A DNA stretch of 64,000 bases from Flavobacterium notoginsengisoli (GTDB taxonomy: Bacteria; Bacteroidota; Bacteroidia; Flavobacteriales; Flavobacteriaceae). The stretch is taken from assembly GCF_014207905.1 (NCBI RefSeq), contig NZ_JACHLB010000002.1, forward strand, positions 434,001 through 498,000, written 5' to 3'. Shown here piece after piece: positions 1,206 through 28,175 of this stretch. Below the pieces are notes generated by a model. The model was not told the DNA's origin and did no database searches. It saw only the letters and a list, made by a program, of their open reading frames with translations. Both the position numbers and the translations under genes were made by a program. How positions within the stretch are numbered: position 1 is the stretch's first letter; the number at the start of each line of letters is the position of its first letter.

Positions 1206-1288
1206 GTTCTAAAAATTTATAGTTCAAAACCGAAAGTAAAGGAATCATACATCGTTTTGCGCTAAATGGCTCTTGAAGGCCGCGTTTG

Positions 1289-1597: not shown

Positions 1598-1622
1598 AAG
1601 GATATATTTTTATTGGTTCATA

Positions 1623-1976: not shown

Positions 1977-2000
1977 TCTGCGATTTTTAAGATTGCTATA

Positions 2001-2051
2001 CAAAATTGATACACATCAATGATTTAATTTGCCAATCTATGCCAATTGGTT
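2001..2051 (-). promoter_or_regulatory. Promoter/operator region of the HTH gene pair
   Basis: Reading leftward, 2008-2001 gives CAATTTTG, one mismatch from TAnnTTTG, about 25 nt before the ATG at 1976. Upstream are TGCCAAT (about 2030-2036) and TGCCAATTGG (2040-2049). The half-sites resemble an autoregulatory operator. Binding is inferred only from repetition and position. Confidence 0.4.
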
Positions 2052-2137
2052 TTGCATTTATTTTCATATGTATAATTATAAATTAAATCCAGTTTCCTTC
2101 CTCAGAACGACTTTCCACTTAATCCAGAGATAGTATC

Positions 2138-2149
2138 TGCCAATTGGCA
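2138..2149. promoter_or_regulatory. Perfect palindrome TGCCAATTGGCA
   Basis: A 12-bp perfect palindrome whose core recurs at 2040-2049, 98 bp away, on the upstream side of the HTH gene pair. Possible operator for one of the ICE HTH or RteC regulators. Confidence 0.4.
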
Positions 2150-2159
2150 TTAGGCATAA

Positions 2160-2192
2160 AAAAAAGCAATACGTTTCTGTATTGCTTTTTTT
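2160..2192 (-). terminator. Intrinsic terminator after the RteC genes
   Basis: Arms AAGCAATAC (2164-2172) and GTATTGCTT (2179-2187) with a 6-nt loop. Read leftward, the hairpin is followed by a run of eight T. It lies about 25 nt beyond the stop of the RteC gene at 2215 and separates the RteC pair from the HTH pair. Confidence 0.8.
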
Positions 2193-2214
2193 ATTATCCT
2201 TAAATAAATACTAT

Positions 2215-3060
2215 TTAAGGTTCTTTGTCCATATATTCTTCCAAAGAGTTTTTAAGATGATCAAGAAATATTGTTCTTGACCCAGCACGAGTCTTCATCC
2301 TATGAAAAGCATGGTGAAGATCATTTATAGGAATCCTAAACAAAGCTTGAAAAACTGAACCGATTTTCCTTGCACTTATTTTTCCATGCGATAGTACTCC
2401 TGATGCATAAAGGGCGTATATTAATTCAACAAGGGCTGATTTACTATCTGTCCAAAGAAGATCTTTTGAATTATACGAGTTTTTAAACTTATGATGAAGC
2501 TCGTCCTTCTGATTTATTTTTGATAATAAATATGAGTATAGGAATTCATTCGCGATAATTCTTGCTACTTTATAGTCGTAATATGTAGAAAAATTAGATT
2601 CTACTTCAAAAACAAAACTATTTAGGCCATCATGAATATTAATTTTTCCCAGTCGAAAGTATGTATCATCGTTATCAGTTCTTCCAGATCGGTAATACCT
2701 ATAAAAATTTGAGTTTGAAATGTGATTTTTATATTCTTGCTTGAGCAATCTAAACTCGTTCAAATAATACCTAAAATACATTTTTCCACTACTGACTGGA
2801 CACCCCGTCTCAATTCTAAAAATTTTATTATAATAAATTAGTTTACCTAAGATTTCTGGTTTAACTATTTTAAAAAAGTCAATTTCATCTTGTATACTAA
2901 CAAAACCCTGTTGTATTATTTCTGCTTTAAGTTCAACCAAAAGTTCCTGTAAAAACAGTACCATCTTATAGGCCTCATCAAAAGCGGGTAAAGATTCTAA
3001 GCCTAATTTATTCTCCATACTTAGTACCTTATTTCTAATTGTAAAAACATTGTTTATCAT
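2215..3060 (-). CDS. RteC domain protein
   Basis: 281 residues if translated from ATG 3058-3060 (MINNVFTIRNK); a TTG at 3084 would add eight residues and sits in an AT-rich promoter-like stretch, so it is less likely. Family features are seen in order: an N-terminal helical region with FVSIQDEIDFFKIVKPEILGKLIYY, a central basic and aromatic region, and a C-terminal segment with SKSALVELIYALYASGVLSHGKIS. RteC of CTnDOT-type elements is a DNA-binding regulator of excision genes. It sits downstream of a second RteC gene on the same strand and ends at a terminator. It probably controls this ICE; the target is not visible. Confidence 0.85.
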   Translation of the reverse strand: MINNVFTIRNKVLSMENKLGLESLPAFDEAYKMVLFLQELLVELKAEIIQQGFVSIQDEIDFFKIVKPEILGKLIYYNKIFRIETGCPVSSGKMYFRYYLNEFRLLKQEYKNHISNSNFYRYYRSGRTDNDDTYFRLGKINIHDGLNSFVFEVESNFSTYYDYKVARIIANEFLYSYLLSKINQKDELHHKFKNSYNSKDLLWTDSKSALVELIYALYASGVLSHGKISARKIGSVFQALFRIPINDLHHAFHRMKTRAGSRTIFLDHLKNSLEEYMDKEP

Positions 3061-3175
3061 AATTATAGAGTTGTTTTTAGACAAAATTTATAATTAAAAA
3101 CAAATATTTATCCCCATATTGGGATATACTGGGAAAAATAAATTTTATAAACTATAGGAAATAGTATGGAGTATT

Positions 3176-4024
3176 TTAAAATTTTCTATCTTCTTCAGAC
3201 TCGATCTTCTTTAATAAAGATTCTCTGATCTCGTCCAAAAATTTTGTTTTATTAATCTTTCTGTGTTTTATTTCGATGAATGTATGATAGAAATCTCCTA
3301 GGCTAAGCCCAAAGATATTTTCTGTTTCATTGACGATAGTTTTAAGGTCTATTTTTTTGTTATCAAAAGAACCATTCGCATGTAGTGCATAAATTAATTC
3401 AATTAATGCTGATTTACTGCTGGACCATACTAACTTACTTTTTTGATTCTGTAGACCTTCAGGACTTTTAGAAATATAATTAAGTTCTTTCAATTTATTC
3501 TCTAAAAACACAAGCAGTAAATCATTCGAAATAATTTTGGCTAATTTATAATCCAATGGTGTTGTAAACTCATTATCTATGTGTAGATGGTACATCTCAA
3601 CCGGAAAATCTATACTATATTCTTTCCGAACAAAATACTCATGATCAAATTTCACCTCATTGTTTCTGAAGTAACCATAAAATGATAGGTTTTCAGTTAA
3701 AAACCTCCTTATGTAGAAAATTTCTTTGTTAATGTATTTCTTTTGTTTTTTAAGATTATTCAATGGCAAGTTCACCGAAATTCGATAGATCGAATTATAG
3801 TAAATCAACTTTGCAACGAATTGAGGTTTAATATGTTTAAAAAAATAAATTTCCTCATTAATATCTTTAAATCCATTTTTGAGAACTATGCTTCTTACAT
3901 CTCTAAGTTTAGAAACAATGAGGTTTATTTTTTCTTCCAGCTCAATTAAGCTACTTTCATATTCGCTGTCGGAATAAGTTGTATCGTGTAAGTCTTTAAT
4001 TAACTCTCTATAGTATTTATTCAC
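3176..4024 (-). CDS. RteC domain protein (paralogue)
   Basis: 282 residues with an apparent GTG start (the start codon reads CAC on the plus strand at 4022-4024); no nearby ATG fits. It shares the RteC landmarks of its neighbour: FKDINEEIYFFKHIKPQFVAKLIYY near residue 60 and SKSALIELIYALHANGSFDNKKIDLKT near residue 210. The spacing between these motifs is nearly the same in both proteins, but overall identity looks modest, so this is an old duplication or two acquisitions. It lies 115 nt upstream of the other RteC gene in the same direction. Confidence 0.82.
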   Translation of the reverse strand: MNKYYRELIKDLHDTTYSDSEYESSLIELEEKINLIVSKLRDVRSIVLKNGFKDINEEIYFFKHIKPQFVAKLIYYNSIYRISVNLPLNNLKKQKKYINKEIFYIRRFLTENLSFYGYFRNNEVKFDHEYFVRKEYSIDFPVEMYHLHIDNEFTTPLDYKLAKIISNDLLLVFLENKLKELNYISKSPEGLQNQKSKLVWSSSKSALIELIYALHANGSFDNKKIDLKTIVNETENIFGLSLGDFYHTFIEIKHRKINKTKFLDEIRESLLKKIESEEDRKF

Positions 4025-4207: not shown

Positions 4208-5548
4208 TTATAATCCTATAAAATATTTCAGCAGTCCAAATAGAAGGCTTAAAACTATAAGATAGATCATACTTAGCTTAAATCTGTACAGCAGTATCAA
4301 GGATAGTACCACCCAAATTAATGAGAGGACATTAATGTTTAAATAGCTTACTGCATGGTTATGAAATAAAATATCTTCACCTAAATAAAAGGCCAGATTT
4401 ATTATTACACCCACCACGGCCGCTGTAACTAATGATAGCACGCTTTTTATTAGAAGATTGTCTTGACTCCTTTCAATAAGAGGGGCTCCCATAAAAATAA
4501 GAATGAAGTTTGGCAAAAAGGTGAAATACCCCGCCACTAATAACCCGATAACTCCCATAATTAATGACCCATCAAAATGATTAAACCCTGCCATAAAACC
4601 AATGTAAGCTAATACGATTACCAACGGGCCGGGTGTAGTTTCTGCTAGCGCAAAACCATCAATCATCTGCGTTTTGGTCAGCCACATAACTTTATTGGTC
4701 ACTACATTTGCTACATAGGGAATAACAGTGTACGACCCTCCAATTGTAAAAAAAGCTGCTTTAGTGAATAATAAGGATGAGCTTTTCCAAAAATCTGAAT
4801 CATTTAAAAAGTTTATGACCACCAAAAAAGGCACAAGCCATAAGCCAATAAAAACTATTGCTTGCATTCCCAATTTCTTTAATGAGATCTTTGGGTTGCT
4901 CTGATTAGAATTAATGTAGAAAAGATCTTCAGATATTCGTTCTTCATTTTTTTGTTGAAGCCTATCTTTAGGAAGTAAGAAATTAGGGACAGTTAGATAA
5001 ATTAAGATACCCATACCAATAATGCCAAAGATTATAAATGGCATTGGGATTTTAAAAAAATAAGATAGCACAAATGCTAGAGCTGCTATGAAGAAATGAA
5101 ATGGAGTTATTAATGCTTTTTTACCTACTTTCCATGTTGCAAATAAAATGATGGCTAACACTGCAGGCTTTAGCCCATTGAATATTGAGGTCAATAGTGA
5201 AGTATTCCCATAACGAGCATAAATAATACTGAGTCCTAATAAAATTAACATGGACGGGAGAATAAAAAATAATCCTGCCACAATGCCTCCTTTTTTCCCA
5301 TGAAGTTTCCAACCCAAATAAATGGCTAATTGATGTGCTTCTGGTCCAGGGAGTACCATACATGCGTTTAAGGCATGGTAAAACTTACTATTGCTTACCC
5401 ATTTTTTTTTCTCGACTAAGAAGTCGTGCATTATTGTAATATGTCCTGTAGTACCTCCAAAGCTAATCCATCCTAAAATGAACCAGAATTTTATGGCTTC
5501 TGAAAATAGTGGTTTTACAGGTGTCTTTTCATCTATTACTTTTTGCAT
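4208..5548 (-). CDS. chrA: ChrA chromate efflux transporter
   Basis: 446 residues, the length of long-chain ChrA proteins with two homologous chromate-transport domains. The N-terminal half has FWFILGWISFGGTTGHITIMH and LNACMVLPGPEAHQLAIYLGW; the C-terminal half repeats the pattern with FTKAAFFTIGGSYTVIPYV and GFALAETTPGPLVIVLAYIGF. Multiple hydrophobic segments place it in the inner membrane. The family exports chromate. It follows the doxX-like gene after 145 nt containing a palindrome, so it may be read from the doxX promoter, its own, or both. It is probably cargo of the ICE. Confidence 0.93.
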   Translation of the reverse strand: MQKVIDEKTPVKPLFSEAIKFWFILGWISFGGTTGHITIMHDFLVEKKKWVSNSKFYHALNACMVLPGPEAHQLAIYLGWKLHGKKGGIVAGLFFILPSMLILLGLSIIYARYGNTSLLTSIFNGLKPAVLAIILFATWKVGKKALITPFHFFIAALAFVLSYFFKIPMPFIIFGIIGMGILIYLTVPNFLLPKDRLQQKNEERISEDLFYINSNQSNPKISLKKLGMQAIVFIGLWLVPFLVVINFLNDSDFWKSSSLLFTKAAFFTIGGSYTVIPYVANVVTNKVMWLTKTQMIDGFALAETTPGPLVIVLAYIGFMAGFNHFDGSLIMGVIGLLVAGYFTFLPNFILIFMGAPLIERSQDNLLIKSVLSLVTAAVVGVIINLAFYLGEDILFHNHAVSYLNINVLSLIWVVLSLILLYRFKLSMIYLIVLSLLFGLLKYFIGL

Positions 5549-5613
5549 CTATTTTTTTGGTTTTTAAATGAACCAGACGGCCCATTAAGAAGTTAAACAC
5601 GATATGATATTAA

Positions 5614-5645
5614 TTTGGAATCAGAATATTCATTCCGATTCCAAA
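5614..5645. promoter_or_regulatory. Palindrome in front of chrA
   Basis: TTTGGAATC (5614-5622) and GATTCCAAA (5637-5645) form perfect 9-bp arms around 14 nt. The centre lies about 80 nt upstream of the chrA start and about 65 nt after the doxX stop. No T-run follows on either strand, so an operator is more likely than a terminator. No dedicated regulator gene is adjacent. Confidence 0.5.
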
Positions 5646-5693
5646 TATACAAAAACACAAACTGGTTCTTTATTTTGATACCTAAAACATGTA

Positions 5694-6158
5694 TTAGTTA
5701 TTTAGTTTTTTCTTAGAGTTGGATATGAAATTATCCACTGAATATTGACCTCCTCCCGTCAATATCAAACTCAATAACCCAGCAATGTATATGACATTAA
5801 TTTCATAACCTGGAGGACCAAACTTCGGACCCATTTCAGTTAGCCCTATCGTATTTACCGAACTAAAGCCATAATTAATATGGATAGTAAACATCGCGAC
5901 TAACATCGTAATTAATAGAGGGATTGAAATAAACCTTGTATACAGTCCGATTAAAACTGCTATACCCCCCAGTAATTCCAAATAAGGAACAAATTGCGCA
6001 TTCAAATGAGCAAAAGGTACACCAACTAAAGTTAATAGTTTTTCAAAACCACCAGTACCTCTGCTTATTTTAGCCCAACCGTGGACAATGAAGCCAATAC
6101 CTATAGCCACTCTCAAAAATAATGGTGCTAATTCGTAATAGGACTTAATTTTTTTCAT
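5694..6158 (-). CDS. DoxX family membrane protein
   Basis: 154 residues with four hydrophobic segments and the DoxX hallmarks: FLRVAIGIGFIVHGWAKI near the N-terminus, FVPYLELLGGIAVLIGLYTR in the middle, and a conserved-looking GPPGYEINVIYIAGLLSLIL near the end. DoxX relatives are inner-membrane proteins linked to thiol or oxidative stress and quinone-related redox, but the reaction is unclear for most. It is the first gene of the leftward unit with chrA. Its promoter carries the same operator as the large rightward redox operon. The 5' leader is about 90 nt. ATG at 6156-6158. Confidence 0.88.
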   Translation of the reverse strand: MKKIKSYYELAPLFLRVAIGIGFIVHGWAKISRGTGGFEKLLTLVGVPFAHLNAQFVPYLELLGGIAVLIGLYTRFISIPLLITMLVAMFTIHINYGFSSVNTIGLTEMGPKFGPPGYEINVIYIAGLLSLILTGGGQYSVDNFISNSKKKLNN

Positions 6159-6252
6159 TTTTCAATTGTTAAATGTTAATATTCTAATTCATTATTTTTC
6201 TCCAGAAAATCTTAATCTCAACTTGGAAAACGAGATCACCTGTAATAGTTTT

Positions 6253-6318
6253 CAAAGGTAAAACTGACATTGGAATTTGTTGATGACAGAATTTCCCGAA
6301 GAGATGACAATTATTCCC
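6253..6318 (-). promoter_or_regulatory. doxX-chrA promoter with paired half-sites
   Basis: Read leftward: GGGAATaatTGTCAT (6318-6304), GGGAAAttcTGTCAT (6297-6283), then exactly 22 nt, then the -7 box TACCTTTG (6260-6253), a perfect TAnnTTTG. The half-sites start 21 bp apart, two helical turns, as for AraC-family sites. No good -33 TTTG is present, which suggests activator dependence. The same layout recurs at the two other promoters of the island. Confidence 0.75.
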
Positions 6319-6452
6319 TCTGTCAAAAAAGCATTAATTAGATCATATCCTAATTATTAAGAATATACAAATACTTAATGAAAGGCTTAAATGAAAAAAT
6401 ACATCTTCTGCAATGTATTTCGAATTGAAAATTAGAAAGAAAAATCATATTC

Positions 6453-6518
6453 GGGAAAAACTGTCATGTTCTTGGGAAAAACTGACATCGATCGCAACAG
6501 GTGTTCATGGTAATTTTG
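6453..6518 (+). promoter_or_regulatory. Promoter of the redox/metal operon with paired half-sites
   Basis: GGGAAAaacTGTCAT (6453-6467) and GGGAAAaacTGACAT (6474-6488) are direct repeats 21 bp apart. After exactly 22 nt comes TAATTTTG (6511-6518), a perfect -7 box, 26 nt before the spondin-gene ATG at 6545. It mirrors the doxX promoter, giving a divergent regulatory region (6159-6544) that serves both arms of the island. Confidence 0.78.
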
Positions 6519-6544
6519 CTTTATAATTTTAAAACAAGATTTGT

Positions 6545-7849
6545 ATGAAACGAAAATCACTAGGCATGCTTTCAATATTAGGTATAACATTATTATTAGC
6601 GGCATGTAGTAAAAATGAGGATGAAATGGATAATATGATTACATCCAATAGCATCACCATTCAAAATGTACTGGATTCAAAAACACTTGTAGAATCGGGT
6701 ACTTTCAAAAACACAGGAGCATCTCCATTAATTATGCCTGGAGAATCAGTATCTTTTCAATTCTCGGCGGGTAAAGGTCAGGCGATATCATTTGCAACGA
6801 TGTATGGCTGGTCAAATGATTTATTTTTTGCACCGGAGAACCCTGGTATAAATCTTTACAAAGCAGATGGAACACCAATTGAAGGCGATGTGTCTGCTCA
6901 AATTAAACTTTGGGATAACGGAACTAGAATTAATCAACATCCAGGTGCGTCTGTAACACATCCAGGGGTTGCTGAAACCAGTACTAAAAACATTAAAGAG
7001 GTTAACGGCTCTGACGATCAAGGAAATACTTATGCGCCAGCTAAAGATCTACTAAATGCCACACTGCATTATGACGGTAATTCCCTTTTTACTCTGACAA
7101 TAAAAAATACATCTGGTAGTACAACTAATCCTACACCGTTTAGTCCAGGCGTATGGGCTATATCTTATATAGCAGGAGGCAATCTTTTGAATTCAAAAAT
7201 TCTTTTTGAATCTGGTAAGCCAACAGCAAATGGACTGACCAATCTTTCAGAAATGGGCGATAACAGTCTTATCGGTAACTATGTAAAGGAACAAACTGGA
7301 ATTTTTACACCATTATCCCCAGTTCTTGTGGTTGTTTATAATGGAATAGAAAACCCGATATATACATTGGGGCAAAAAGATGCAGGGAAAGGTTTGAAAA
7401 AACTAGCACAAATGGGAAATGCCTCAGACCTTGCTGATTACCTGAAAACCGCTAAAGGTGTTAAAAATGTTTACGTATTAAGTGCCGAAGGAAGTACTGT
7501 GTTGTTACCAAAAATTGGTAATCAAGAAGGTAGTAAAGTATCACAAAAACTTGACGTATCTAAAGGAGATCGAATCGCAATTGCGACTATGTACGGTTTA
7601 TCGAATGACTGGTTCTTTGCTTCAAAAGGAAATGGTGTAGATGCAATGTTAAAAGGTGATATTTCAAATACCATCGGTCTATTTGACAATGGAACGGCAG
7701 TAAATCAATTTCCGGGTGCAAGTATAACCCAATTTAATCTAGCTGGAACTCCAATCGCAGAAGATAAAAATATTGAGGAGGTTCCTAATCCGAATGCGTT
7801 CACAACATTGCCATCAATACCAAATATAATCAAAGTAACACTACAGTAA
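6545..7849 (+). CDS. Exported lipoprotein with two spondin domains
   Basis: 434 residues. A lipoprotein signal ends at LLLAACSKN (Cys near residue 21). The mature part is an internal duplication: ISFATMYGWSNDLFFAPENPG with LWDNGTRINQHPGASVT in the first half, and IAIATMYGLSNDWFFASKGNG with LFDNGTAVNQFPGASIT in the second. This matches bacterial spondin_N-type proteins; their bacterial function is unknown. It is the first gene after the operator promoter, so it should be among the most strongly made products of the regulon. The protein is probably anchored facing the periplasm or cell surface. The domain call rests on the repeated motif pattern. Confidence 0.85.
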   Translation: MKRKSLGMLSILGITLLLAACSKNEDEMDNMITSNSITIQNVLDSKTLVESGTFKNTGASPLIMPGESVSFQFSAGKGQAISFATMYGWSNDLFFAPENPGINLYKADGTPIEGDVSAQIKLWDNGTRINQHPGASVTHPGVAETSTKNIKEVNGSDDQGNTYAPAKDLLNATLHYDGNSLFTLTIKNTSGSTTNPTPFSPGVWAISYIAGGNLLNSKILFESGKPTANGLTNLSEMGDNSLIGNYVKEQTGIFTPLSPVLVVVYNGIENPIYTLGQKDAGKGLKKLAQMGNASDLADYLKTAKGVKNVYVLSAEGSTVLLPKIGNQEGSKVSQKLDVSKGDRIAIATMYGLSNDWFFASKGNGVDAMLKGDISNTIGLFDNGTAVNQFPGASITQFNLAGTPIAEDKNIEEVPNPNAFTTLPSIPNIIKVTLQ

Positions 7850-7893
7850 GCAGATACTGTAGTACAATTATTCATTTATAAAATTTAGAAAAA

Positions 7894-8430
7894 ATGGAAA
7901 ATCAATTCAGTCTTTTAAATAAAGAGCAATTATCATCAAAGAACAGAGAAGTCTTTGAAAAAATGGAAAAAAACTTTGGTAAAGTTCCAAATTTATACAA
8001 CGTTATTGCATACTCAGAACATGCGTTGGATGCGTACATAAAGCTTGAAGAAACACCAAATTCATTCACTCCAAAAGAGGTTGAAGCAGTGAACTTAGTC
8101 GTAAGCCAAGTAAATCAGTGTTTGTACTGTTTAAGTGCACATACCATAATTGCCCGCACAACAGGAATTACAGAAGAAGATTCGCGAGAAATTAGATTGG
8201 GTAAATTCTCAGCAGAAGAGAAAATTGACGCATTGGTAAAATTAACGGAACAAATCACCTTGAATAGAGGTCATGTCAATGACAATGCATTAGAAAAATT
8301 CTTCGAAGTGGGTTACACAAAAGAAAATCTGGTTGATCTGATATTACTTATTGGAGACAGAACGATCAGTAATCTACTATATGCAGTAACACAGGTGCCT
8401 ATCGATTTCCCAATTGCAAAATCAGTTTAA
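7894..8430 (+). CDS. AhpD-like carboxymuconolactone decarboxylase family protein
   Basis: 178 residues. The AhpD/CMD core is seen as NLVVSQVNQCLYCLSAHTIIAR, with the paired cysteines of the CxxC motif followed by SxxH, and a conserved ending PIDFPIA. AhpD-type proteins are thiol reductants or peroxidases; substrates vary. It lacks an obvious signal peptide, so it is probably cytoplasmic. It lies 44 nt after the spondin gene and 4 nt before the peroxiredoxin gene, which suggests co-transcription and a peroxide-related role. A paralogue at 11374 has lost the first Cys. Confidence 0.9.
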   Translation: MENQFSLLNKEQLSSKNREVFEKMEKNFGKVPNLYNVIAYSEHALDAYIKLEETPNSFTPKEVEAVNLVVSQVNQCLYCLSAHTIIARTTGITEEDSREIRLGKFSAEEKIDALVKLTEQITLNRGHVNDNALEKFFEVGYTKENLVDLILLIGDRTISNLLYAVTQVPIDFPIAKSV

Positions 8431-8434
8431 AAAC

Positions 8435-9124
8435 ATGAATAAGATAGCAAAAAAAATCACTGCATTGATGGGATGTTTGTCCCTGTTAATGTTAGGGCAA
8501 ACTGTTAATGCCCAAGAGAAAAAGATGGCTATGCAAGAAGGGATGAAAATGGAGCATATGGAAATGACAGCATCTATGATTCCTCAAAAAGCAGAAGATA
8601 TCAGTCCGTTGTTAGCTGGAGAAAAAATTCCAATGGCCATGTTACTGGATCAAAATGGAAAAATGGTTGATTTAAATAAGCTAGTTGCGGAAAAACCCAC
8701 CATATTGATCTTCTACCGTGGTGGCTGGTGTCCTTACTGCTCAAAACAGTTAGCAGGTCTGGAGGAAATCGCTGCGGATCTGAACAAGATCGGGTATCAG
8801 TTATTGGCTGTTAGTACCGACAAGCCAGATGGGCTAATGGAATCCGCGCAAAAAGAAAATTTGAAATATACTTTACTGTCAGATGCGGATGTATCAGTTG
8901 CGAAAAAATTCGGTATTGCATTTAAAGCACCAAAAGGATACTGGGATTTATTACCGAAATCAAGTGGTGGTAAAAACACAGAATTATTATTACCAGTGCC
9001 ATCCGTATTTATACTGGATCGTAAAGGGAAAATAAATTTTGAATACATCAATCCGGATATAACGCAAAGACTGAAACCACAGCTTTTGAAAGTAGTTGCG
9101 GAAACTATTATTAACGATTTATAA
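8435..9124 (+). CDS. Exported peroxiredoxin-like protein (AhpC/TSA family)
   Basis: 229 residues from ATG 8435; an in-frame TTG further upstream overlaps the previous gene and is not needed. A signal peptide ends near TVNAQ, followed by a Met-rich stretch (KKMAMQEGMKMEHMEM) that could bind copper or act as an oxidant sink. The redoxin fold has ILIFYRGGWCPYCSKQLAGL, with a CPYC centre. The family reduces peroxides or thiols. The export signal puts it in the periplasm, with the thioredoxin, Msr and DsbD products of the same operon. It is 11 nt from the next gene. Confidence 0.9.
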   Translation: MNKIAKKITALMGCLSLLMLGQTVNAQEKKMAMQEGMKMEHMEMTASMIPQKAEDISPLLAGEKIPMAMLLDQNGKMVDLNKLVAEKPTILIFYRGGWCPYCSKQLAGLEEIAADLNKIGYQLLAVSTDKPDGLMESAQKENLKYTLLSDADVSVAKKFGIAFKAPKGYWDLLPKSSGGKNTELLLPVPSVFILDRKGKINFEYINPDITQRLKPQLLKVVAETIINDL

Positions 9125-9135
9125 AAAAGAAGAAG

Positions 9136-9603
9136 ATGAAAAGTTTAAGATTAATACTGCCAATGGCAATTGCGTTTTTCTTACTGACCGCTTTAGGAAA
9201 TATGGCTATGGCGCAACAGATGTCTAAAAAGCATATGGATACTATGGCCAAAGAGATCAAATTTTCTGACGGTAAGTGGAAAGACATTGCAGCAATGGCA
9301 AAAAAGAATAAAAAATATGTGTTTGTTGATGCCTATACCACATGGTGCGGACCATGTAAGCTGCTTAAATCACAAACGTTTAGAGAGAAAGAGGTGATCA
9401 GTTTCTTTAATAAAAACTTCATTAATGTATCCGTAGATATGGAGAAAGGTGAAGGTTTGACATTAGCCCAGACCTGGGATGTAACTGCCTACCCTACATT
9501 ATTGTTCTTTAATCCTGAAGGAAAGCTTATTATGAAGCATTTGGGATTTGTAGATGGAGCAAGACTTATCGAAATTGGAAAACAATCATTAGCAAAAATG
9601 TAA
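9136..9603 (+). CDS. Exported thioredoxin-family protein
   Basis: 155 residues with a signal peptide (hydrophobic residues about 5-25, cleavage likely after AMAQ) and a thioredoxin fold carrying YTTWCGPCKLLKS, the classic WCGPC active site, plus the cis-Pro region DVTAYPTLLFF. It is a predicted periplasmic thiol-disulfide carrier. In this operon it could pass electrons from DsbD to MsrA, MsrB or the peroxiredoxin; that link is inferred from context. Spacing to both neighbours is 11 nt. Confidence 0.9.
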   Translation: MKSLRLILPMAIAFFLLTALGNMAMAQQMSKKHMDTMAKEIKFSDGKWKDIAAMAKKNKKYVFVDAYTTWCGPCKLLKSQTFREKEVISFFNKNFINVSVDMEKGEGLTLAQTWDVTAYPTLLFFNPEGKLIMKHLGFVDGARLIEIGKQSLAKM

Positions 9604-9614
9604 AACTAGAACAG

Positions 9615-10379
9615 ATGGGCAATTGGGATTTGAACAATAAACGTGCTTTAGTGACAGGTGGAACTAAAGGAATTGGGAAAGCGACGGTAATTGAGTTGGC
9701 TGAATTAGGAGCTCAGGTATTATTTACTGGAAGAGATGAGAAAACCGTAGAACTGGTAGAACAGGAACTGCGAGCATTGGGGCATCAGGTTTTTGGATTA
9801 AAAGCCGATGTGACAAGCACAGATCATCGTCATAAAGTGAAGGATTGGATTGACAGCAGATGGAAATCACTGGATATTTTAGTAAATAATGCCGGAATAA
9901 ATATTCGGAAACCAACATTAGACTACCTGGAGAGTGAATACAGACAGTTGTTGGAGGTAAACCTAATTGCACCATTTGAATTATCTAGGTTACTACATCA
10001 ATATTTAAAGGGGACCACTGTGGGAGTGGTGATTAATGTGGCTTCAGTAGCGGGCATCATGGATGCCCGCACAGGGGCTCCTTACGGAATTTCAAAAAGT
10101 GGTTTAATTCATTTAGGACGAAGTTTGGCAAATGAATGGGCTACAGATAACATAAGAGTAAATACAGTATCACCTTGGTTTACCAGAACACCAGCAACAG
10201 AAAGTGTGCTGACAAATCAAGAAAAACTTGAAAAAATTATTTCAAGAACGCCCTTAGGGAGAGTTGCTAATGACAAGGAAATAGCTTCAGTTATCGCTTT
10301 TTTAGCGATGGATAAGGCTTCATTTGTAAATGGACAAAATATTGTCGTTGATGGAGGTGCTTCGGCTGCAATTTTGTAA
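9615..10379 (+). CDS. Short-chain dehydrogenase/reductase
   Basis: 254 residues, a classical SDR. It has the nucleotide-binding motif TGGTKGIGKAT near residue 16, NNAGIN, the catalytic serine in NVASVAG, and YGISK as the catalytic Tyr/Lys. The ending FVNGQNIVVDGG is typical. It resembles the tropinone-reductase-like and gluconate-dehydrogenase-like group, but the substrate cannot be read from sequence. No signal peptide, so it is cytoplasmic. It sits in the redox operon after the thioredoxin gene. It may detoxify reactive carbonyls made during oxidant stress (inference). Confidence 0.88.
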   Translation: MGNWDLNNKRALVTGGTKGIGKATVIELAELGAQVLFTGRDEKTVELVEQELRALGHQVFGLKADVTSTDHRHKVKDWIDSRWKSLDILVNNAGINIRKPTLDYLESEYRQLLEVNLIAPFELSRLLHQYLKGTTVGVVINVASVAGIMDARTGAPYGISKSGLIHLGRSLANEWATDNIRVNTVSPWFTRTPATESVLTNQEKLEKIISRTPLGRVANDKEIASVIAFLAMDKASFVNGQNIVVDGGASAAIL

Positions 10380-10511
10380 ATTTAGTATAACGCAATGAAT
10401 TTCAGCCCCAATAGCTACCCCTAGAATGAAAAGATACTATAGATAGATCTTTTAATAAGTCAAAAGTTCCACATAGTAACTGAAAATAATATTAAATACA
10501 AATTATAAACA

Positions 10512-11372: not shown

Positions 11373-11373
11373 A

Positions 11374-11913
11374 ATGATAACGATAGATATACCCAACGGA
11401 GAAGATTTAGACACAGAAAACAAAAATTTCTGGTTGTATTTCAAAGAGCGATTAGGAAGGGTGCCAAATCTATATGCATCGATGATGCATTCAAAAAATG
11501 CACTCAGTAATTATTATCAATTTCATACGAGAATGGTATCACTTACCAAGAAGGAAACAGAAGCTATTATGTTAGTTGTTTCTGAGGAGAACCAATCCTT
11601 GTATTGTTTAAGTGCACACACGATGATTGGTAAGTTAAATGGATTCAGCGATGAGCAGATCATGCAGATACGTCAAGGTCAAGTGAAATTTGACCATAAA
11701 TTAAATGTATTGGTAAGTTTTGTTAAAGGCGTGATCACAGGTAAAGAAAAAGAGCTAAATCTTCTGGAAAACTGTTTCAATGTTGGATACAGTCAGGAAA
11801 ACATTATAGATATACTGCATATTATAGGTGACAGCTATATTACAAATTACACAACTAAAGTTTTTAACGTTCCTATAGACTTTCCTATAGCGGAAAAAAT
11901 GAATCAGCCATGA
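11374..11913 (+). CDS. AhpD/CMD-like protein lacking one active-site cysteine
   Basis: 179 residues, a paralogue of the protein at 7894. The core reads LVVSEENQSLYCLSAHTMIGK, so the CxxC is SxxC: the first Cys is replaced by Ser while the second Cys and the His are kept. The ending VPIDFPIAE matches the paralogue. Loss of one Cys should prevent a CxxC disulfide cycle, so it may be a one-Cys enzyme, a partner subunit, or inactive. It starts 1 nt after the AraC stop, and its own stop overlaps the msrA start (ATGA), which points to tight co-translation. Confidence 0.87.
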   Translation: MITIDIPNGEDLDTENKNFWLYFKERLGRVPNLYASMMHSKNALSNYYQFHTRMVSLTKKETEAIMLVVSEENQSLYCLSAHTMIGKLNGFSDEQIMQIRQGQVKFDHKLNVLVSFVKGVITGKEKELNLLENCFNVGYSQENIIDILHIIGDSYITNYTTKVFNVPIDFPIAEKMNQP

Positions 11914-12587
11914 AAGCAAGAATTAGCTATAAATATATGATTGGCATATTTGCCATTATCCTGGGTTTTTCAGTAGCTGTAAACGCCCAAAAAAAAGACG
12001 GTAGTGTACAGAGTGGTGGAAACCCCAAATCCAAAAGACTGAAGATGGACAAAAATAAGGTGGATACAGCAACATTTGCCGCAGGCTGTTTCTGGTGTGT
12101 GGAGGAACAATTCAAAATGCTAAAAGGGGTTATTTCAGTGACTTCTGGTTTTACAGGCGGACATGTAGAAAATCCATCATATAAAGATGTGACCACAGGA
12201 ATCACAGGACATGCTGAAGCCTGCAATATTGTGTACGATCCAACTAAAATAAGTTATAAAGAACTTTTACAAGCGTTTTTTGTAGCACATGACCCGACTC
12301 AGCTTAACCGTCAGGGAGAAGATATCGGTACGCAGTACCGATCGGCGATATTCTACCATAATGAGGAACAAAAGAAAGAAGCACAGTTTTATATTTCAAG
12401 GCTGGATACAGAAAAGGCATACCAGAAAAAAATAGTTACAGAAGTGAGCCCATTCAAAAAATTCTATAAAGCAGAGGATTATCATCAGAATTACTACGAA
12501 AATAATGCTAAGGTTCCGTATTGTCAGCTGATTATAAAACCGAAGGTAGAGAAATTTAAAAAGGCTTTCGCTGGAAAATTAAAATAA
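11910..12587 (+). CDS. msrA: Exported peptide-methionine (S)-S-oxide reductase
   Basis: 225 residues. A signal peptide (GIFAIILGFSVAVNAQ) is followed by the MsrA domain with the catalytic AAGCFWCVEEQF, the GHAEACNIVYDP motif and GTQYRSAIFYHNEEQ. MsrA reduces the S epimer of methionine sulfoxide in proteins. Most bacterial MsrA is cytoplasmic; the signal makes this one periplasmic. It overlaps the preceding CMD gene by 4 nt and lies 5 nt before msrB, with dsbD next, which matches a DsbD-fed periplasmic Msr pathway. Confidence 0.95.
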   Translation: MKARISYKYMIGIFAIILGFSVAVNAQKKDGSVQSGGNPKSKRLKMDKNKVDTATFAAGCFWCVEEQFKMLKGVISVTSGFTGGHVENPSYKDVTTGITGHAEACNIVYDPTKISYKELLQAFFVAHDPTQLNRQGEDIGTQYRSAIFYHNEEQKKEAQFYISRLDTEKAYQKKIVTEVSPFKKFYKAEDYHQNYYENNAKVPYCQLIIKPKVEKFKKAFAGKLK

Positions 12588-12592
12588 AGGAT

Positions 12593-13147
12593 ATGAAAAA
12601 CATCATCAACAGTTTAGCTATTATAATGGCCTTATGTTTTTTGGGTTCTTTTGAATCAAAAGCGCAGGCAAATAGCTCACAGACGCAAAATCCATACTAT
12701 TCGCGTACAGATACAAGTAAGCTAAACGTTTCGAATGCGGAATGGAAAAAAATATTAAAACCTAGTGTTTATGAGGTGGCAAGGTTAAAAGGTACTGAAA
12801 GAGCTTTTACCGGAAAATACTGGGACAGTGATGTCAAAGGGACGTATTACTGTGCAGTATGTGGAAATGAACTGTTCAGATCTGATGCAAAGTTTTCAAG
12901 TACCTGTGGATGGCCAAGCTTCTTTGAAACAGTGAGAAAAAACAGCGTATTATATAAGGTAGACAATTCGCATGGAATGCATAGAACAGAAGTACTATGT
13001 GCGAGATGTGATTCTCATCTGGGACACATTTTTGATGATGGTCCGGCTCCTAATCATAAAAGATTCTGTATGAATTCAAATGTACTGGATTTTCAGCCTT
13101 TCAATCAAGCTAAAAACAGTATCAAAACTAAATCTAACATTAAATGA
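12593..13147 (+). CDS. msrB: Exported peptide-methionine (R)-S-oxide reductase
   Basis: 184 residues with a signal peptide ending near SKAQA. The MsrB fold shows zinc-binding CxxC pairs (CAVCGNELF and CARCDSHLGH), the substrate motif CGWPSF and the catalytic KRFCMNSN. It reduces the R epimer of methionine sulfoxide. Together with MsrA it covers both epimers in the periplasm. Its stop overlaps the dsbD start (ATGA). Methionine sulfoxide in exported proteins is a typical product of hypochlorous acid, which fits the island theme. Confidence 0.95.
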   Translation: MKNIINSLAIIMALCFLGSFESKAQANSSQTQNPYYSRTDTSKLNVSNAEWKKILKPSVYEVARLKGTERAFTGKYWDSDVKGTYYCAVCGNELFRSDAKFSSTCGWPSFFETVRKNSVLYKVDNSHGMHRTEVLCARCDSHLGHIFDDGPAPNHKRFCMNSNVLDFQPFNQAKNSIKTKSNIK

Positions 13148-15135
13148 AAAACTGGCTATCAATTATTTTACTGATCTTTTCAATATCATTCGCTAATGCG
13201 CAGATAAAGAATGTCGTAAAATGGGAATATAAAATTGAAAAAAACGGGGCCAATGAATACCAGGCAGTACTTTCAGCGAGCATTGATAAAGGATGGCACA
13301 TGTATTCAAAAGATTTGCCCAAGAATAGTGGAATTCCGACGGAATTTAAGACTAATTCTCCTGATATCGAGCTGATTGGAAATACCGTAGAAGCGGGTAA
13401 GAAAGTACGGGAATTTAGCAAAGCTTTTGGTGTCGAAATTGTCTATTTTTCGGATAAAGTTGATTTTGTTCAAAAGTTTAAATTAAAAAATCCGAATGCC
13501 TTAGCGAAAGTCAGCAGCGAGATCACTTATCAGGTTTGTGATGATAAAGTCTGCTTGGCTCCTAATACACTAGAATTTGAAGAAACCATTAATGCACCAT
13601 TACAGGGAAAAGATGCGATAAAGCAAGAAAATGCAAGTTCAGGTGAATTACTGAACTCTACTGAACTTAAAGTGCAAAGTATAGATATTACGCATCCGTT
13701 AACTACGGAGGGCGCTGTCGAATCTGTAACTGAATCAGGAAATGGATTGGTTTTTATACTAGGTTTTTTAGGTGGATTAATAGCACTATTAACGCCTTGT
13801 GTTTTTCCGATGATACCCTTGACGGTATCATTTTTCACAAAAGGTAGTGAAAACAAGGCAAAAGGCCGTAGAAATGCTATTATTTATGGTGTATTTATTT
13901 TAGGTATATTTTTGAGTCTGAGTATCCCATTTCACTTATTGCAGGGTGTCAGTGGAAGTGTATTTAACGAGATTGCAACCAATGTCTGGTTAAACCTGGT
14001 ATTCTTTGTTGTTTTCTTATTCTTTGCCCTGAGCTTTTTCGGATACTACAACATTACATTACCGAGCTGGTTACTGAACAAATCCTCAAAAGCAGAGGAA
14101 GCAGGTGGAATCGTAGGTATATTCTTTATGGCCTTGACACTGGTTATTGTATCATTCTCTTGTACCGGTCCGATTCTGGGCAGTTTATTGGGAGGTGTCG
14201 CATCGACCTCGACCAATGTTCCGTTATTATTGACGTTTGCGTTGGGAGGATTCGGACTGGCATGGGCCTTGGTTTTTGGGTTTCTGGCGCTATTTCCACA
14301 GGTATTGTCGTCTTTGCCAAAATCAGGAAGCTGGATGAACACATTGAAAGTAGTGATGGGATTCCTTGAACTTGCACTGGCATTGAAATTTCTTTCTAAG
14401 GCCGATTTGGTATCCAAAACGCTTTTATTGAAAAGAGAGGTTTTTGTGGCGATTTGGGTCGTGATTGGAATCGCATTAGTGTTGTACTTATTTGGTAAAA
14501 TAAAGTTCCCATATGACCGGAAGGATGAAAAGATTGGAAAAACCCGTAAAATAATTGGAGGATTAACAGCGGTTTTCATTGCATATCTGACAATAGGGCT
14601 ATTTCCTACAACAAAACCTAATTTGACCTTGTTAAGCGGAATTCTTCCTCCACTTAATGTCAGCCTCTATTCAAATCCGAGTGATGGTATTTTGGGATTA
14701 CATCCGGAGCATGACTTCTACAAAGGTCTTGAAATTGCAAAGAAAGAAAATAAGCCTGTTTTACTAGATTTTACAGGATACGGCTGTGAAAACTGCCGTA
14801 AAATGGAAGAGTTTGTTTGGAGTAAAGATGATATACTGCCCATTCTGCAGGATGACTTAGTTCTTGTATCACTCTATGTGGATGACCGGGAAGAATTACC
14901 AAAAACCGAGCAAAAGGCTGTTGATCTGGGTAATGGTCAAAAGAAAAAGATTAAAACCATAGGCGATAAATGGTCCTTATTCCAGCAGATTAATTTTAAT
15001 AATAACTCGCAACCGCATTATGTTTTACTTACACCTGAGGGACAGGTAATCAATAAACCTGTATCGGGTTATATGTCTAAGGATGAATTTAAGACGTTTC
15101 TAACGATTGGACTAAAATATTTTAAAAATAAATAG
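13144..15135 (+). CDS. dsbD: DsbD-type transmembrane thiol reductase
   Basis: 663 residues in the three-part DsbD layout. There is a signal peptide (to about residue 19) and an N-terminal periplasmic domain with ITYQVCDDKVCLAP; a multi-pass membrane core from about residue 195 with LLTPCVFPMIPLTVSFF and SFSCTGPILG, carrying the two membrane cysteines; and a C-terminal thioredoxin domain with YGCENCRKME near residue 550. It moves electrons from cytoplasmic thioredoxin to periplasmic partners. Directly after msrB with overlapping ATGA, it is the likely reductant source for MsrA, MsrB and the exported thioredoxin. Confidence 0.93.
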   Translation: MKNWLSIILLIFSISFANAQIKNVVKWEYKIEKNGANEYQAVLSASIDKGWHMYSKDLPKNSGIPTEFKTNSPDIELIGNTVEAGKKVREFSKAFGVEIVYFSDKVDFVQKFKLKNPNALAKVSSEITYQVCDDKVCLAPNTLEFEETINAPLQGKDAIKQENASSGELLNSTELKVQSIDITHPLTTEGAVESVTESGNGLVFILGFLGGLIALLTPCVFPMIPLTVSFFTKGSENKAKGRRNAIIYGVFILGIFLSLSIPFHLLQGVSGSVFNEIATNVWLNLVFFVVFLFFALSFFGYYNITLPSWLLNKSSKAEEAGGIVGIFFMALTLVIVSFSCTGPILGSLLGGVASTSTNVPLLLTFALGGFGLAWALVFGFLALFPQVLSSLPKSGSWMNTLKVVMGFLELALALKFLSKADLVSKTLLLKREVFVAIWVVIGIALVLYLFGKIKFPYDRKDEKIGKTRKIIGGLTAVFIAYLTIGLFPTTKPNLTLLSGILPPLNVSLYSNPSDGILGLHPEHDFYKGLEIAKKENKPVLLDFTGYGCENCRKMEEFVWSKDDILPILQDDLVLVSLYVDDREELPKTEQKAVDLGNGQKKKIKTIGDKWSLFQQINFNNNSQPHYVLLTPEGQVINKPVSGYMSKDEFKTFLTIGLKYFKNK

Positions 15136-15137
15136 TT

Positions 15138-15581
15138 ATGAAAACACCAGCTAAAAAACAACAGAATGCCGGTATGATTGTGATGATCTTAGGGACAGCA
15201 CTCGTACTATTATGGATCGGTATATTCAAATTTACACCGACTGAAGCTAAAGGAATAAAACCTTTGATGGAAAATCAACCATTATTGTCATGGATGTATA
15301 GTGTGTTGAGTGTTCAAGGAGTCTCCAACTTCATTGGTTTGGTAGAAATTGCAACCGCAGTTTTGCTTATTGTAGGACTGAAAATAAACAAACTGTTGAA
15401 GTATGCTGGTGCTTTATTAATCTTAACTTTTGTAATCACGATTAGCTTCTTGTTTACAACACCAGGTGTGTGGAAAAGTGTCGATGGCGTTCCAGTGACG
15501 GACTTTTTTATTCTAAAAGATCTGATTCCCCTAGGTTTAGGTATCGTTCTGTGGAATGACGACCGAAGTGTATCGAAATAA
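15138..15581 (+). CDS. YkgB/DUF417 family membrane protein
   Basis: 147 residues with four hydrophobic segments. The DUF417 pattern is visible: WIGIFKFTPTEAKGIKPLMENQPLLSW, LVEIATAVLLIVGL, and the end VTDFFILKDLIPLGLGIVLW. E. coli RclC (YkgB), part of the reactive-chlorine regulon under the AraC-type RclR, is in this family. It starts 2 nt after dsbD. A second family member at 27450 has the same operator in its promoter. The molecular function of the family is not known. Confidence 0.85.
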   Translation: MKTPAKKQQNAGMIVMILGTALVLLWIGIFKFTPTEAKGIKPLMENQPLLSWMYSVLSVQGVSNFIGLVEIATAVLLIVGLKINKLLKYAGALLILTFVITISFLFTTPGVWKSVDGVPVTDFFILKDLIPLGLGIVLWNDDRSVSK

Positions 15582-15615
15582 CTTCAAATAACATATAGAT
15601 TCTCTATTATTAAAA

Positions 15616-16044: not shown

Positions 16045-16091
16045 ATATAGGAAAAAACGAGTCGTAAAGATCATCTTTTCCTAAATCTGAA

Positions 16092-16870: not shown

Positions 16871-16877
16871 AAAAGTC

Positions 16878-18161: not shown

Positions 18162-18162
18162 A

Positions 18163-26273: not shown

Positions 26274-26309
26274 AGCGTTAATGTCTTATAATAGACATTA
26301 ACGCTTTTC
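26274..26309. terminator. Bidirectional terminator between the two arms of the island
   Basis: Perfect 12-bp arms AGCGTTAATGTC (26274-26285) and GACATTAACGCT (26294-26305) with an 8-nt loop, then TTTT rightward. It ends the long rightward operon, and its right arm includes the stop codon of the convergent PepSY gene (26298-26300). Confidence 0.85.
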
Positions 26310-27383
26310 CTTTTTTTTATACCATATGTATAGACCTGTAAAGCCCAAGACAACAGGAAACATACCAATAAAGAGATAAAAAAATCTTACTAGGTAGCCT
26401 CCCCAAGCGCCTATATGGAGCTGGTAGTTTATCCATGACATTCTTTTATCAAAGCTTGATTCTTCTATGTTTTTAAATTCTATAGGTGCGCCAGTTTTAG
26501 TATCAAACAGAATAAAACTGGATTTACCTGCATACAACGGAAATTTATTTGTGGAAATATGTCCTTTAACCACAATGGGCATGTTATTTAATTGGGGAAT
26601 ATCTATTGCAATTACTGCAAAACTAGGATATGATGCTTTCGTGTATTTTAAAATACTATCCAGGTTTGCTCCAATGGAACCCGTCCTGTAATCCCTTTGA
26701 TGATGACTTGTATGACTAGCTGTTAAAGATGGCCAATTGATCCAAATGCCACTAATAATCAAAATGCTATTTAAAACAATCGACCATACGCCTAACACCC
26801 TGTGCCATAAAGAAGCCTTATTTTTTCTTTTTTTAAATGTGATCTGAAATGTGAGGGTTTTCCAAAAATGCTTTTTATATACGATTACTCCGGAAATAAT
26901 TGAAATCATCATAAGTACTCCCACTATAACAACAATCATTTCTCCTAAACGTCCTGATAAAAGATTGTAATGTAAACTATAAAGCCATCTAAAGAACATT
27001 CCTACGGATTCCTCATAATTGCCATCTCGAATTACCTGCCCGGTGTATTGATCTATAAATACGTATGCCAAACTGTTATCGAATAAATCATTTTGAAACC
27101 TGTATAACATAAATTCATAAGGTTCATAGCGATTTTCAGGAAAATCATGAAGCACAATTTTTTTAATATCAGGATACTTTTCTTGTACTATTCGATAGAC
27201 ACTGTCTACAGATAATTTCACTTTGTGACTTTCACGATGATAGATAGTTTTATTCACATACCGATCAACATCTTTTCTAAATAAAAGAAGAGTACCACTT
27301 AAACTTATAACTACGAAGATTACTCCTAATATTCGACCGAGCCATTTGTGGAGCTGGAAAAAATATTTAATTTTCCAGCCCAT
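26298..27383 (-). CDS. PepSY-domain transmembrane protein
   Basis: 361 residues. It has the PepSY_TM layout: an N-terminal helix (HKWLGRILGVIFVVISLSGTLLLF), a PepSY-like periplasmic region (VDSVYRIVQEKYPDIKKI), further helices (WHRVLGVWSIVLNSILIISGIWINWP) and a C-terminal helix ending in YIWYKKKEKR. Conserved His residues near the helix ends (FQLHKWLGR, SLHYNLLSG, WHRVLG, YQLHIG) suggest haem or metal binding and a ferric/cupric reductase-like role. It is downstream of the YkgB gene (66-nt gap) and so probably under the same operator promoter. Confidence 0.88.
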   Translation of the reverse strand: MGWKIKYFFQLHKWLGRILGVIFVVISLSGTLLLFRKDVDRYVNKTIYHRESHKVKLSVDSVYRIVQEKYPDIKKIVLHDFPENRYEPYEFMLYRFQNDLFDNSLAYVFIDQYTGQVIRDGNYEESVGMFFRWLYSLHYNLLSGRLGEMIVVIVGVLMMISIISGVIVYKKHFWKTLTFQITFKKRKNKASLWHRVLGVWSIVLNSILIISGIWINWPSLTASHTSHHQRDYRTGSIGANLDSILKYTKASYPSFAVIAIDIPQLNNMPIVVKGHISTNKFPLYAGKSSFILFDTKTGAPIEFKNIEESSFDKRMSWINYQLHIGAWGGYLVRFFYLFIGMFPVVLGFTGLYIWYKKKEKR

Positions 27384-27449: not shown

Positions 27450-27986
27450 CTATTCTTCCGAAGCTATAAAAGGTTGGATTGATTCTTCAGCAATTGCTTT
27501 CTTTCTAAAAGTTTGTAGAATAAACAGACTCAATGAAAAACCAATTAAATCCTTGAACAAGAATAGTCCTAAAAAGGTCATGTAACCAATACCGTTCACA
27601 TTAACTATTGTTTCAGGCGTAGTAATCAACATGGAGCCCGTCACAAAGAACATCAGCATAGTAACGAAAGTACCGAAAATTCCTATTTTAGGTTTTTTGA
27701 GTCCGATTAAGATTAGGATAGCACCAACCCATTCTGTAACACCTATTAAATCAGAACCAATATACGGCCCAAAGAGTTTAAAGTGCCAGCTGATTAAAGG
27801 ACTGTTTTCTACCAAAGGAATAATTCCTTCCGCACCTGGAGCTGTCATTTTATATGTTCCTGCCCACAGGAGCATGATCGCTAAAGTAGCTACCCCAGCT
27901 TTAAAAGGTAAGTTTTTCGCTTCAATAAAAGCGGTTTGATTTAATAATTTCGATTGAAATTTTCCAGTTAATGATTTTTGTTCCAT
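27450..27986 (-). CDS. YkgB/DUF417 family membrane protein (second copy)
   Basis: 178 residues. A 30-residue N-terminal extension precedes four hydrophobic segments with the DUF417 pattern: LLWAGTYKMTAPGAEGIIPLVENSPLISWHF, GVTEWVGAILILIGLKKP and FLGLFLFKDLIGFSLSLF. It is a paralogue of the protein at 15138, with matching xGIxPLxENxPLxSW blocks. E. coli RclC belongs to this family. Its promoter carries the island operator at 28043-28057. It probably forms a two-gene unit with the PepSY gene. Function unknown. Confidence 0.87.
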   Translation of the reverse strand: MEQKSLTGKFQSKLLNQTAFIEAKNLPFKAGVATLAIMLLWAGTYKMTAPGAEGIIPLVENSPLISWHFKLFGPYIGSDLIGVTEWVGAILILIGLKKPKIGIFGTFVTMLMFFVTGSMLITTPETIVNVNGIGYMTFLGLFLFKDLIGFSLSLFILQTFRKKAIAEESIQPFIASEE

Positions 27987-28012: not shown

Positions 28013-28057
28013 CAAAATTGGGTCAATTTAGTTATCCGGTAAATGACAAATTTTCCC
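28013..28057 (-). promoter_or_regulatory. YkgB-PepSY promoter with the island operator
   Basis: Read leftward: GGGAAAattTGTCAT (28057-28043), exactly 22 nt, then CAATTTTG (28020-28013), one mismatch from TAnnTTTG, 26 nt before the ATG at 27986. The position 21 bp further upstream (28064-28078) is degenerate, matching about half of the 12 informative bases. This third copy links the unit to the doxX and spondin promoters. Confidence 0.7.
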
Positions 28058-28175
28058 GAAGAAATACACTATTTTCATTTAAACACATAATTAAATACTA
28101 TTTTTTCGACTAATGTTTAGGTTTAAATTGATTGTACATAGTAAGAGTTGGTAAAAATTGTACAATATGATAATG

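Follow-up and report, generated by a model that had tools for sequence, protein, structure and literature searches.

A paired direct-repeat operator at a fixed distance from the TAnnTTTG box, and a linked AraC-family regulator, before putative oxidant-defence genes of Flavobacterium notoginsengisoli and other Bacteroidota

In Flavobacterium notoginsengisoli (RefSeq assembly GCF_014207905.1), a doxX-chrA unit and a long operon rich in redox genes are read in opposite directions from one divergent region, and the question raised by this locus is whether a single regulator acts on both through a shared operator, and in response to which signal. We studied a stretch of 64,000 nucleotides (contig NZ_JACHLB010000002.1, positions 434,001 to 498,000 of the forward strand; hereafter the window, with positions counted from its first letter). 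An original prediction, made from the letters of the window, had placed paired half-sites before both units, named the AraC-family protein encoded in the rightward operon as their activator, and proposed a mobile stress regulon. The comparison of genomes described below supports this interpretation, and a regulator that switches on genes of oxidant repair very probably docks at the paired sites. To the whole of our preferred reading, in which the AraC-family protein would bind the repeat, activate oxidant-defence promoters and sense its signal through a C-x3-H-x2-E-x2-C element, we give a probability of roughly 0.8.

Direct reading of both strands confirmed the predicted positions of half-sites and boxes, the 21-bp spacing and the 22-nt gaps on both sides of the divergent region (Table 1). 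Each promoter carries two 15-nt half-sites (GGGAAnnnnTGnCAT), which start 21 bp apart and leave 6 nt between them, and a TAnnTTTG box follows the near half-site after 22 nt. The half-site consensus originally given is exact in two of the four half-sites and has one mismatch in the other two.

Table 1. Features of the divergent region, of the genes behind it and of the third site, in window coordinates.
Feature	Position	Strand	Evidence
Distal half-site, leftward promoter (GGGAATAATTGTCAT)	6304..6318	-	Sequence; one of only two pairs in genome
Near half-site, leftward promoter (GGGAAATTCTGTCAT)	6283..6297	-	Sequence; pair rarity in genome
-7 box, leftward promoter (TACCTTTG)	6253..6260	-	22 nt after near half-site; gap conserved in related loci
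Distal half-site, rightward promoter (GGGAAAAACTGTCAT)	6453..6467	+	Sequence; pair rarity in genome
Near half-site, rightward promoter (GGGAAAAACTGACAT)	6474..6488	+	Sequence; pair rarity in genome
-7 box, rightward promoter (TAATTTTG)	6511..6518	+	22 nt after near half-site; first-gene ATG 26 nt further
DoxX-family gene, first of leftward unit	5694..6158	-	Pfam DoxX; NCBIfam NF050144 HvfX family
ChrA-type chromate transporter, second of leftward unit	4208..5548	-	Pfam Chromate_transp
Spondin-domain lipoprotein-like protein, first of rightward operon	6545..7849	+	NCBIfam NF038123
AhpD-like (carboxymuconolactone decarboxylase family) protein	7894..8430	+	Pfam CMD
AhpC/TSA-type peroxiredoxin-like protein (listed ORF start 8414)	8423..9124	+	Pfam AhpC-TSA
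Thioredoxin-like protein	9136..9603	+	Pfam Thioredoxin
Short-chain dehydrogenase (SDR)	9615..10379	+	Pfam adh_short_C2
AraC-family regulator, proposed activator; C89-x3-H93-x2-E96-x2-C99	10512..11372	+	Pfam HTH_18; site linkage; residue conservation; model
Second AhpD-like protein	11374..11913	+	Pfam CMD
Methionine sulfoxide reductase A (MsrA)	11910..12587	+	Pfam PMSR
Methionine sulfoxide reductase B (MsrB)	12593..13147	+	Pfam SelR
DsbD-like thiol:disulfide transmembrane protein	13144..15135	+	Pfam DsbD_TM
RclC-like DUF417 membrane protein	15138..15581	+	29% to E. coli RclC, E 1e-17; below NCBIfam RclC cut-off
Third site, degraded distal half-site	28064..28078	-	Sequence
Third site, exact near half-site (GGGAAAATTTGTCAT)	28043..28057	-	Sequence
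Third site, box (CAATTTTG)	28013..28020	-	22 nt after near half-site
Second RclC-like DUF417 gene, behind third site	27450..27986	-	25% to E. coli RclC
PepSY_TM protein, gene after second RclC-like gene	26298..27383	-	Family search

Single half-sites with up to 3 mismatches were not above chance in the 64-kb window (80 found, 75.9 expected), and the weight of the argument therefore rests on the paired form only; TAnnTTTG by itself was likewise not enriched there (73 found, 83.5 expected). The pair, within 3 mismatches over its 20 fixed positions, was found at these two places only in the whole 5.5-Mb genome, and the reversed pattern gave no match at 3 mismatches in the same 5.5 Mb. One half-site match with 3 mismatches at 6256-6270, which overlaps the left box, was judged to be chance. 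Scans of positions 5600-17000 for sigma-70 promoters (49 promoter-like sequences found, 41.7 expected) and for terminators (11 found, 7.4 expected) were uninformative.

We searched the AraC-family protein against genome contigs and kept the best 80 of 179 relatives, corresponding to 78 distinct loci of 49-75% identity that were selected without regard to the site; with the window added, these made 79 sources. The record titles of these best 80 of 179 relatives name Flavobacteriaceae, Sphingobacteriaceae, Chitinophagaceae, Cytophagales and others. Two loci, from an Ignavibacteriaceae MAG (L009, 75% AraC identity) and a Rhodoglobus MAG (L082, 50%), are filed outside Bacteroidota, which probably reflects binning errors or transfer.

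The 78 loci and the window held 100 paired sites within 5 mismatches of 20 (2 at 0, 7 at 2, 17 at 3, 22 at 4 and 52 at 5 mismatches), a count that includes repeats, as L007, L008 and L028 are near-identical. As controls on the same loci, the reversed pattern gave 14 matches, all at 5 mismatches, and a pattern with CCCTT in place of GGGAA gave 10 (2 at 4 and 8 at 5 mismatches). When gaps of 10-35 nt were scanned, exact TAnnTTTG boxes were found at 22 nt in 43 cases, at 21 nt in 5 and at 23 nt in 1, and at no other gap; these numbers include the same repeats, and a recount over 93 distinct sites gave 38, 3 and 1, with none elsewhere between 10 and 35. Neither control yielded an exact TAnnTTTG at gaps of 10-35. 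Boxes with one mismatch, at the 93 distinct sites, numbered 26 at gap 22, one at gap 21 and 21 at other gaps (10, 14, 15, 27, 30 and 35), 10 of the latter at gap 30.

By the combined pattern rule, the site is present in 67 of the 79 sources, window included, and 80 distinct site sequences give the approximate consensus GGGAAATAnnGnCAA nnnnnC GGGAAnTnnnGnYAT, N22, TAnnTTTG. Thus the motif, for which conservation upstream of homologous operons had been proposed as a check, is conserved there, with its gap fixed at 22 nt and rarely at 21 or 23. A profile placed a site above all reversed-sequence maxima in 75/79 sources, a figure that is partly circular because most of these sites, the third site of the window included, trained it; the independent part of the result consists of 9 of the 12 sources missed by the pattern, eight of them scoring 32-40 and one (L038) 9.4. 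No profile site was found in 4 of the 79 sources. In two loci (L032, 6599-6655; L036, 5910-5966), a weaker half-site lies one 21-bp step further upstream, forming a triple repeat before the spondin operon.

We additionally identified a third copy of the operator in the window, absent from the original prediction, at 28078-28043 on the minus strand (28013-28078 with its box), which keeps the 22-nt gap. Its box stands 26 nt upstream of the second RclC-like DUF417 gene, and the PepSY_TM gene comes next. The copy has 5 mismatches, which kept it out of the 3-mismatch genome scan. It scores 23.9 in the profile and is the lowest of the profile's own training sites, to which it belongs; the main sites score 42.1 and 51.9, and no other place in the window exceeds 6.6.

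The genes behind these sites include two encoding AhpD-like proteins, a peroxiredoxin, a thioredoxin, MsrA, MsrB, a DsbD-like protein and two RclC-like proteins, and this content suggests oxidant defence. From gene content alone, we infer that the regulon would defend against a strong oxidant of thiols and methionine akin to hypochlorous acid. Cus-type efflux genes lie downstream of the rightward run in the same direction. The CusA-type gene among them (16878-20100) appears as two overlapping ORFs, 16878-18161 and 18076-20100, and may therefore be split or frameshifted.

Which genes stand first behind the site elsewhere was assessed at 87 sites that had been selected for a box at gaps of 21-23, of which 83 were readable, the window's three sites and near-duplicate loci included. 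The best match among window genes was most commonly the spondin-domain protein (43/83), then the AhpD-like (13), RclC-like (8) and peroxiredoxin (3) proteins, AraC itself (2), DoxX (1) and MsrA (1), and 12 first genes matched no window gene. Four of these 12 were scanned for families and proved to be an alpha/beta hydrolase, two YHS-domain proteins and an OsmC-like protein, and several more resemble that hydrolase by eye; first genes of these three kinds count against the oxidant reading. MsrB followed by MsrA lies directly behind the site in two further loci (L123 and L129). To our knowledge, the spondin domain has no known role in oxidant defence, and a literature search for spondin-domain proteins together with oxidative stress found nothing.

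The regulator is a stand-alone protein of 286 aa, with a C-terminal double helix-turn-helix domain (Pfam HTH_18, E 3.4e-19) and, in the Pfam scan, no sensor domain of a named type. Its structure model is confident (pLDDT 89.4, pTM 0.85), and is least certain at the Cys/His/Glu element (mean pLDDT 77 for residues 81-90 and 64 for residues 91-100). The nearest solved folds found with Foldseek were Rns, CsvR and ToxT, and for the N-terminal domain RhaR and AraC, the matches to whole AraC-family chains being loose (TM 0.3-0.4), and a sequence search of the PDB returned a single match, the DNA-binding protein AdpA.

The element C-x3-H-x2-E-x2-C occurs in 89/89 close relatives, defined as AraC-like ORFs at E<=1e-20 in the 78 loci, the window and three paralogue loci, and in 0/14 weaker AraC matches of the same loci; it is absent from the window's other AraC protein (38090-38980), and thus marks the sub-family of the regulator. 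Both C89 and C99 are invariant in all 89, as are C89, H93, E96 and C99 in 44 aligned sequences; Cys19 is not conserved. We regard the element as a candidate sensor; it may have a structural or metal-binding role and not act as a redox switch.

If the signal were a metal (copper or zinc, for instance, bound at C89, H93, E96 and C99), the AraC-family protein would still bind the sites and the genes would form a metal-stress regulon. We consider this unlikely: the invariant Cys2HisGlu residues, the Cus-type efflux genes, ChrA and the HvfX family membership of the DoxX gene speak for it, but no metal gene was found at the first position after the site in related loci, and within flanks of up to 10 kb in the 78 loci the window's CusA was matched in only two and ChrA in one, at 22-26% identity.

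In the preferred reading of an oxidant signal, the AraC-family protein would bind the direct repeat GGGAAnnnnTGnCAT N6 GGGAAnnnnTGnCAT, probably with one protomer per half-site, and would activate a Bacteroidota-type TAnnTTTG promoter starting 22 nt downstream. This would apply to both divergent promoters and, with less strength, to the one in front of the RclC-like gene at 27986. The oxidant would be sensed through the invariant C-x3-H-x2-E-x2-C of the N-terminal domain. Activation would be self-amplifying if araC is co-transcribed with the rightward operon, which is not certain because a 132-nt gap precedes araC. We infer the binding, the activation rather than repression, the chemical signal and the role of the Cys/His/Glu element from comparison of sequences. 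AraC-family proteins can also repress, and the repeats might instead serve a repressor or a dual regulator; this is improbable, since the near half-site stops 22 nt short of the -7 box, in the region of about -35, leaves the box and the start uncovered, and keeps its position in related loci. An operator at about -35 is typical of class II activators.

We investigated the distribution of site and regulator in 299 genomes from the host's family, with a cut-off of E<=1e-60 for AraC and up to 3 mismatches for the site with its box; at most 8 AraC candidates were scored per genome, so that some relatives may be missed. The site and box were found in 39/299 genomes (the reversed pattern in 2/299), and the AraC protein in 41/299. 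The site was present in 30 of the 41 AraC-positive versus 9 of the 258 AraC-negative genomes (Fisher p 3e-24, or 2e-23 with the window's own genome left out), and no site at 3 mismatches was found in 11 of the 41. The 39 genomes held 52 sites, 43 of them in the 30 AraC-positive genomes, where 42/43 lay within 10 kb of araC, and many of the araC-linked sites are directly downstream of it. Nine site-bearing genomes fall below the AraC cut-off. In seven of them a 40-48% AraC relative that carries the Cys/His/Glu element was found near the site, adjacent to it in six and at a distance of about 4 kb in one (L129). In another (L128), the site is followed by an AhpD-like gene and no AraC was found in the 11 kb read, and in the last (L131) the site looks like chance. 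The proposed link between AraC protein and operator is thus supported by co-occurrence and proximity, both in these 299 genomes and in the loci chosen by AraC similarity, and the predicted regulator-operator pair is widespread in Bacteroidota, across many genera.

Two copies of the paired operator, about 250-270 bp apart on the same strand and adjoining araC, were found in eleven family genomes (G019, G034, G036, G044, G072, G145, G156, G169, G246, G248 and G267, some of which correspond to loci L086-L090 and L092).

Three AraC paralogues in the genome of F. notoginsengisoli (L004, L005 and L006) also carry C-x3-H-x2-E-x2-C, and have as neighbours a hydrolase, an AhpD-like gene and a full-length DUF417 gene. 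In 15 of the 18 loci formed by these paralogues and their relatives, the 22-nt gap is kept and the half-site ends in TCCAT; such a half-site at this gap was not found in L108, L110 and L112. Across 177 boxes, an NCAT-type end was most frequent at gap 22 (15 boxes), followed by gap 43 (22+21; 6 boxes) and gap 6 (5 boxes). A half-site that varies at a constant gap would be expected of an AraC protein that recognises the half-site and a polymerase that sets the spacing.

That another regulator, encoded elsewhere, binds the sites, with the linkage to AraC reflecting conserved gene order only, is highly improbable. AraC binding is here a prediction, and L128 combines the site and an AhpD-like target with no AraC in the 11 kb read, but against this, the site is kept across different first genes and gene orders where the AraC family is near, in more distant AraC paralogues the half-site at this position has another sequence, and direct repeats averaging 21 bp are the form predicted for the AraC-type domains of Bacteroides (PMC3878776). 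Chance, or a recent functionless duplication, of the two promoters has next to no probability, for although single half-sites are common by chance and the divergent region has two facing stretches with 89% complementarity over 18 nt, it is already contradicted by the conservation found, namely the rarity of the pair in the genome, its recurrence in distant genera and the lack of exact boxes at other gaps.

The regulon had also been described as mobile, which appears to hold for the present copy and not for the system as a whole. Two adjacent RteC genes adjoin the redox cluster on its left, and conjugative-transposon genes lie about 20-45 kb to the left of this copy (together in window 1-4024 and contig 389-434 kb). 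Genes for TraG, TraJ, TraK, TraM, TraN, MobB and MobC are on this contig, to the left of the RteC genes and at a distance of about 18-39 kb from them. An AraC orthologue (E<=1e-60) was found in 2/81 genomes of the genus, the window's own included, and the nearest protein relatives among the best 80 of 179 are in other genera. This fits acquisition of the present copy on a conjugative element. We take the conjugative-transposon genes to be of CTnDOT/ERL type, elements with which the locus shares Bacteroidetes transfer genes and RteC, and the redox cluster would then be cargo of such an element. The regulator-operator pair is not confined to a mobile element, since it occurs in many Bacteroidota genera. 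Four TraM genes are present in the genome, one of the others lying some 36 kb beyond the window's right end; type I restriction-like genes were seen by eye among the conjugative-transposon genes left of the cluster, and no plasmid match at near identity was found for positions 6000-16200.

If the preferred reading is true, a phylum of common soil, water and gut bacteria gains an oxidant-response regulator with a readable operator, from which regulons could be predicted directly from genomes, and spondin-domain lipoproteins, DUF417 proteins and AhpD-like proteins would be tied to one stress. It would also provide an inducible promoter of defined geometry for Bacteroidota, and a defence set near a conjugative element would help to explain its spread. 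Any tractable species would allow an immediate test of the 22-nt rule.

Finally, we compared the locus with known systems. The original prediction had been unable to match the regulon to a described one, and we likewise found no description of the operator, the AraC family or the regulon in the open-licence literature, which is weak evidence of absence. Its suggestion of an AraC-type geometry stands, in that two direct half-sites lie 21 bp apart beside a promoter, as they do for E. coli AraC at araI1-I2, whose regulatory domain, with that of RhaR, is among the nearest folds of the regulator's model. E. coli AraC differs in its half-site sequence and promoter type, and the present locus has no sugar genes. 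The geometry is not new, because direct repeats averaging 21 bp are predicted for the AraC-type domains of Bacteroides hybrid two-component systems (HTCS; PMC3878776), and is therefore of a known kind. An AraC-type DNA-binding domain and repeats of about 21 bp are common to both systems; HTCS, however, are sensor-kinase fusions for glycans, whereas the present regulator stands alone and has an oxidant-defence target set.

A further parallel concerns RclR, an AraC-family activator responding to reactive chlorine. On exposure to HOCl, E. coli RclR switches on rclABC by means of Cys21/Cys89 (PMC7464077); in P. aeruginosa, RclR activates rclX, a member of the AhpD family, and confers protection from both HOCl and HOSCN (PMC7950407). 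A relation of the regulator to E. coli RclR (NP_414839) was rejected by sequence, as BLASTP gave no significant similarity (best E 0.37), and RclR has a Cupin_6 domain that the window regulator lacks. The cysteines of RclR (Cys21/Cys89; PMC7464077) and of the window regulator (C89/C99) differ and are not comparable in position, because the sequences do not align, and a search of the E. coli rcl region for the operator, with 3 mismatches allowed, gave no match. The gene comparison covered rclC and rclX-type genes. Within it, RclC-like and AhpD-like genes both stand behind the site, which are the kinds of target shared with E. coli rclC (DUF417) and the P. aeruginosa rclX family (PMC7464077 and PMC7950407); the two window RclC-like proteins score 65.4 and 61.3 bits against a cut-off of 275 in NCBIfam RclC (NF040476), and are DUF417 relatives, not certified RclC. 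Thus, sequence and domain content set the regulator apart from RclR, yet its predicted targets are similar to those of RclR regulons. We tentatively suggest, at somewhat less than even odds, that Bacteroidota have a phylum-wide RclR counterpart of their own, an AraC-family protein with an unrelated sensor and a metal-thiol switch at C-x3-H-x2-E-x2-C, which would control AhpD-like, RclC-like and methionine-sulfoxide-repair genes through one rigid promoter (21-bp direct repeat, 22 nt, TAnnTTTG), with sub-families that have changed the half-site and kept the 22-nt geometry.
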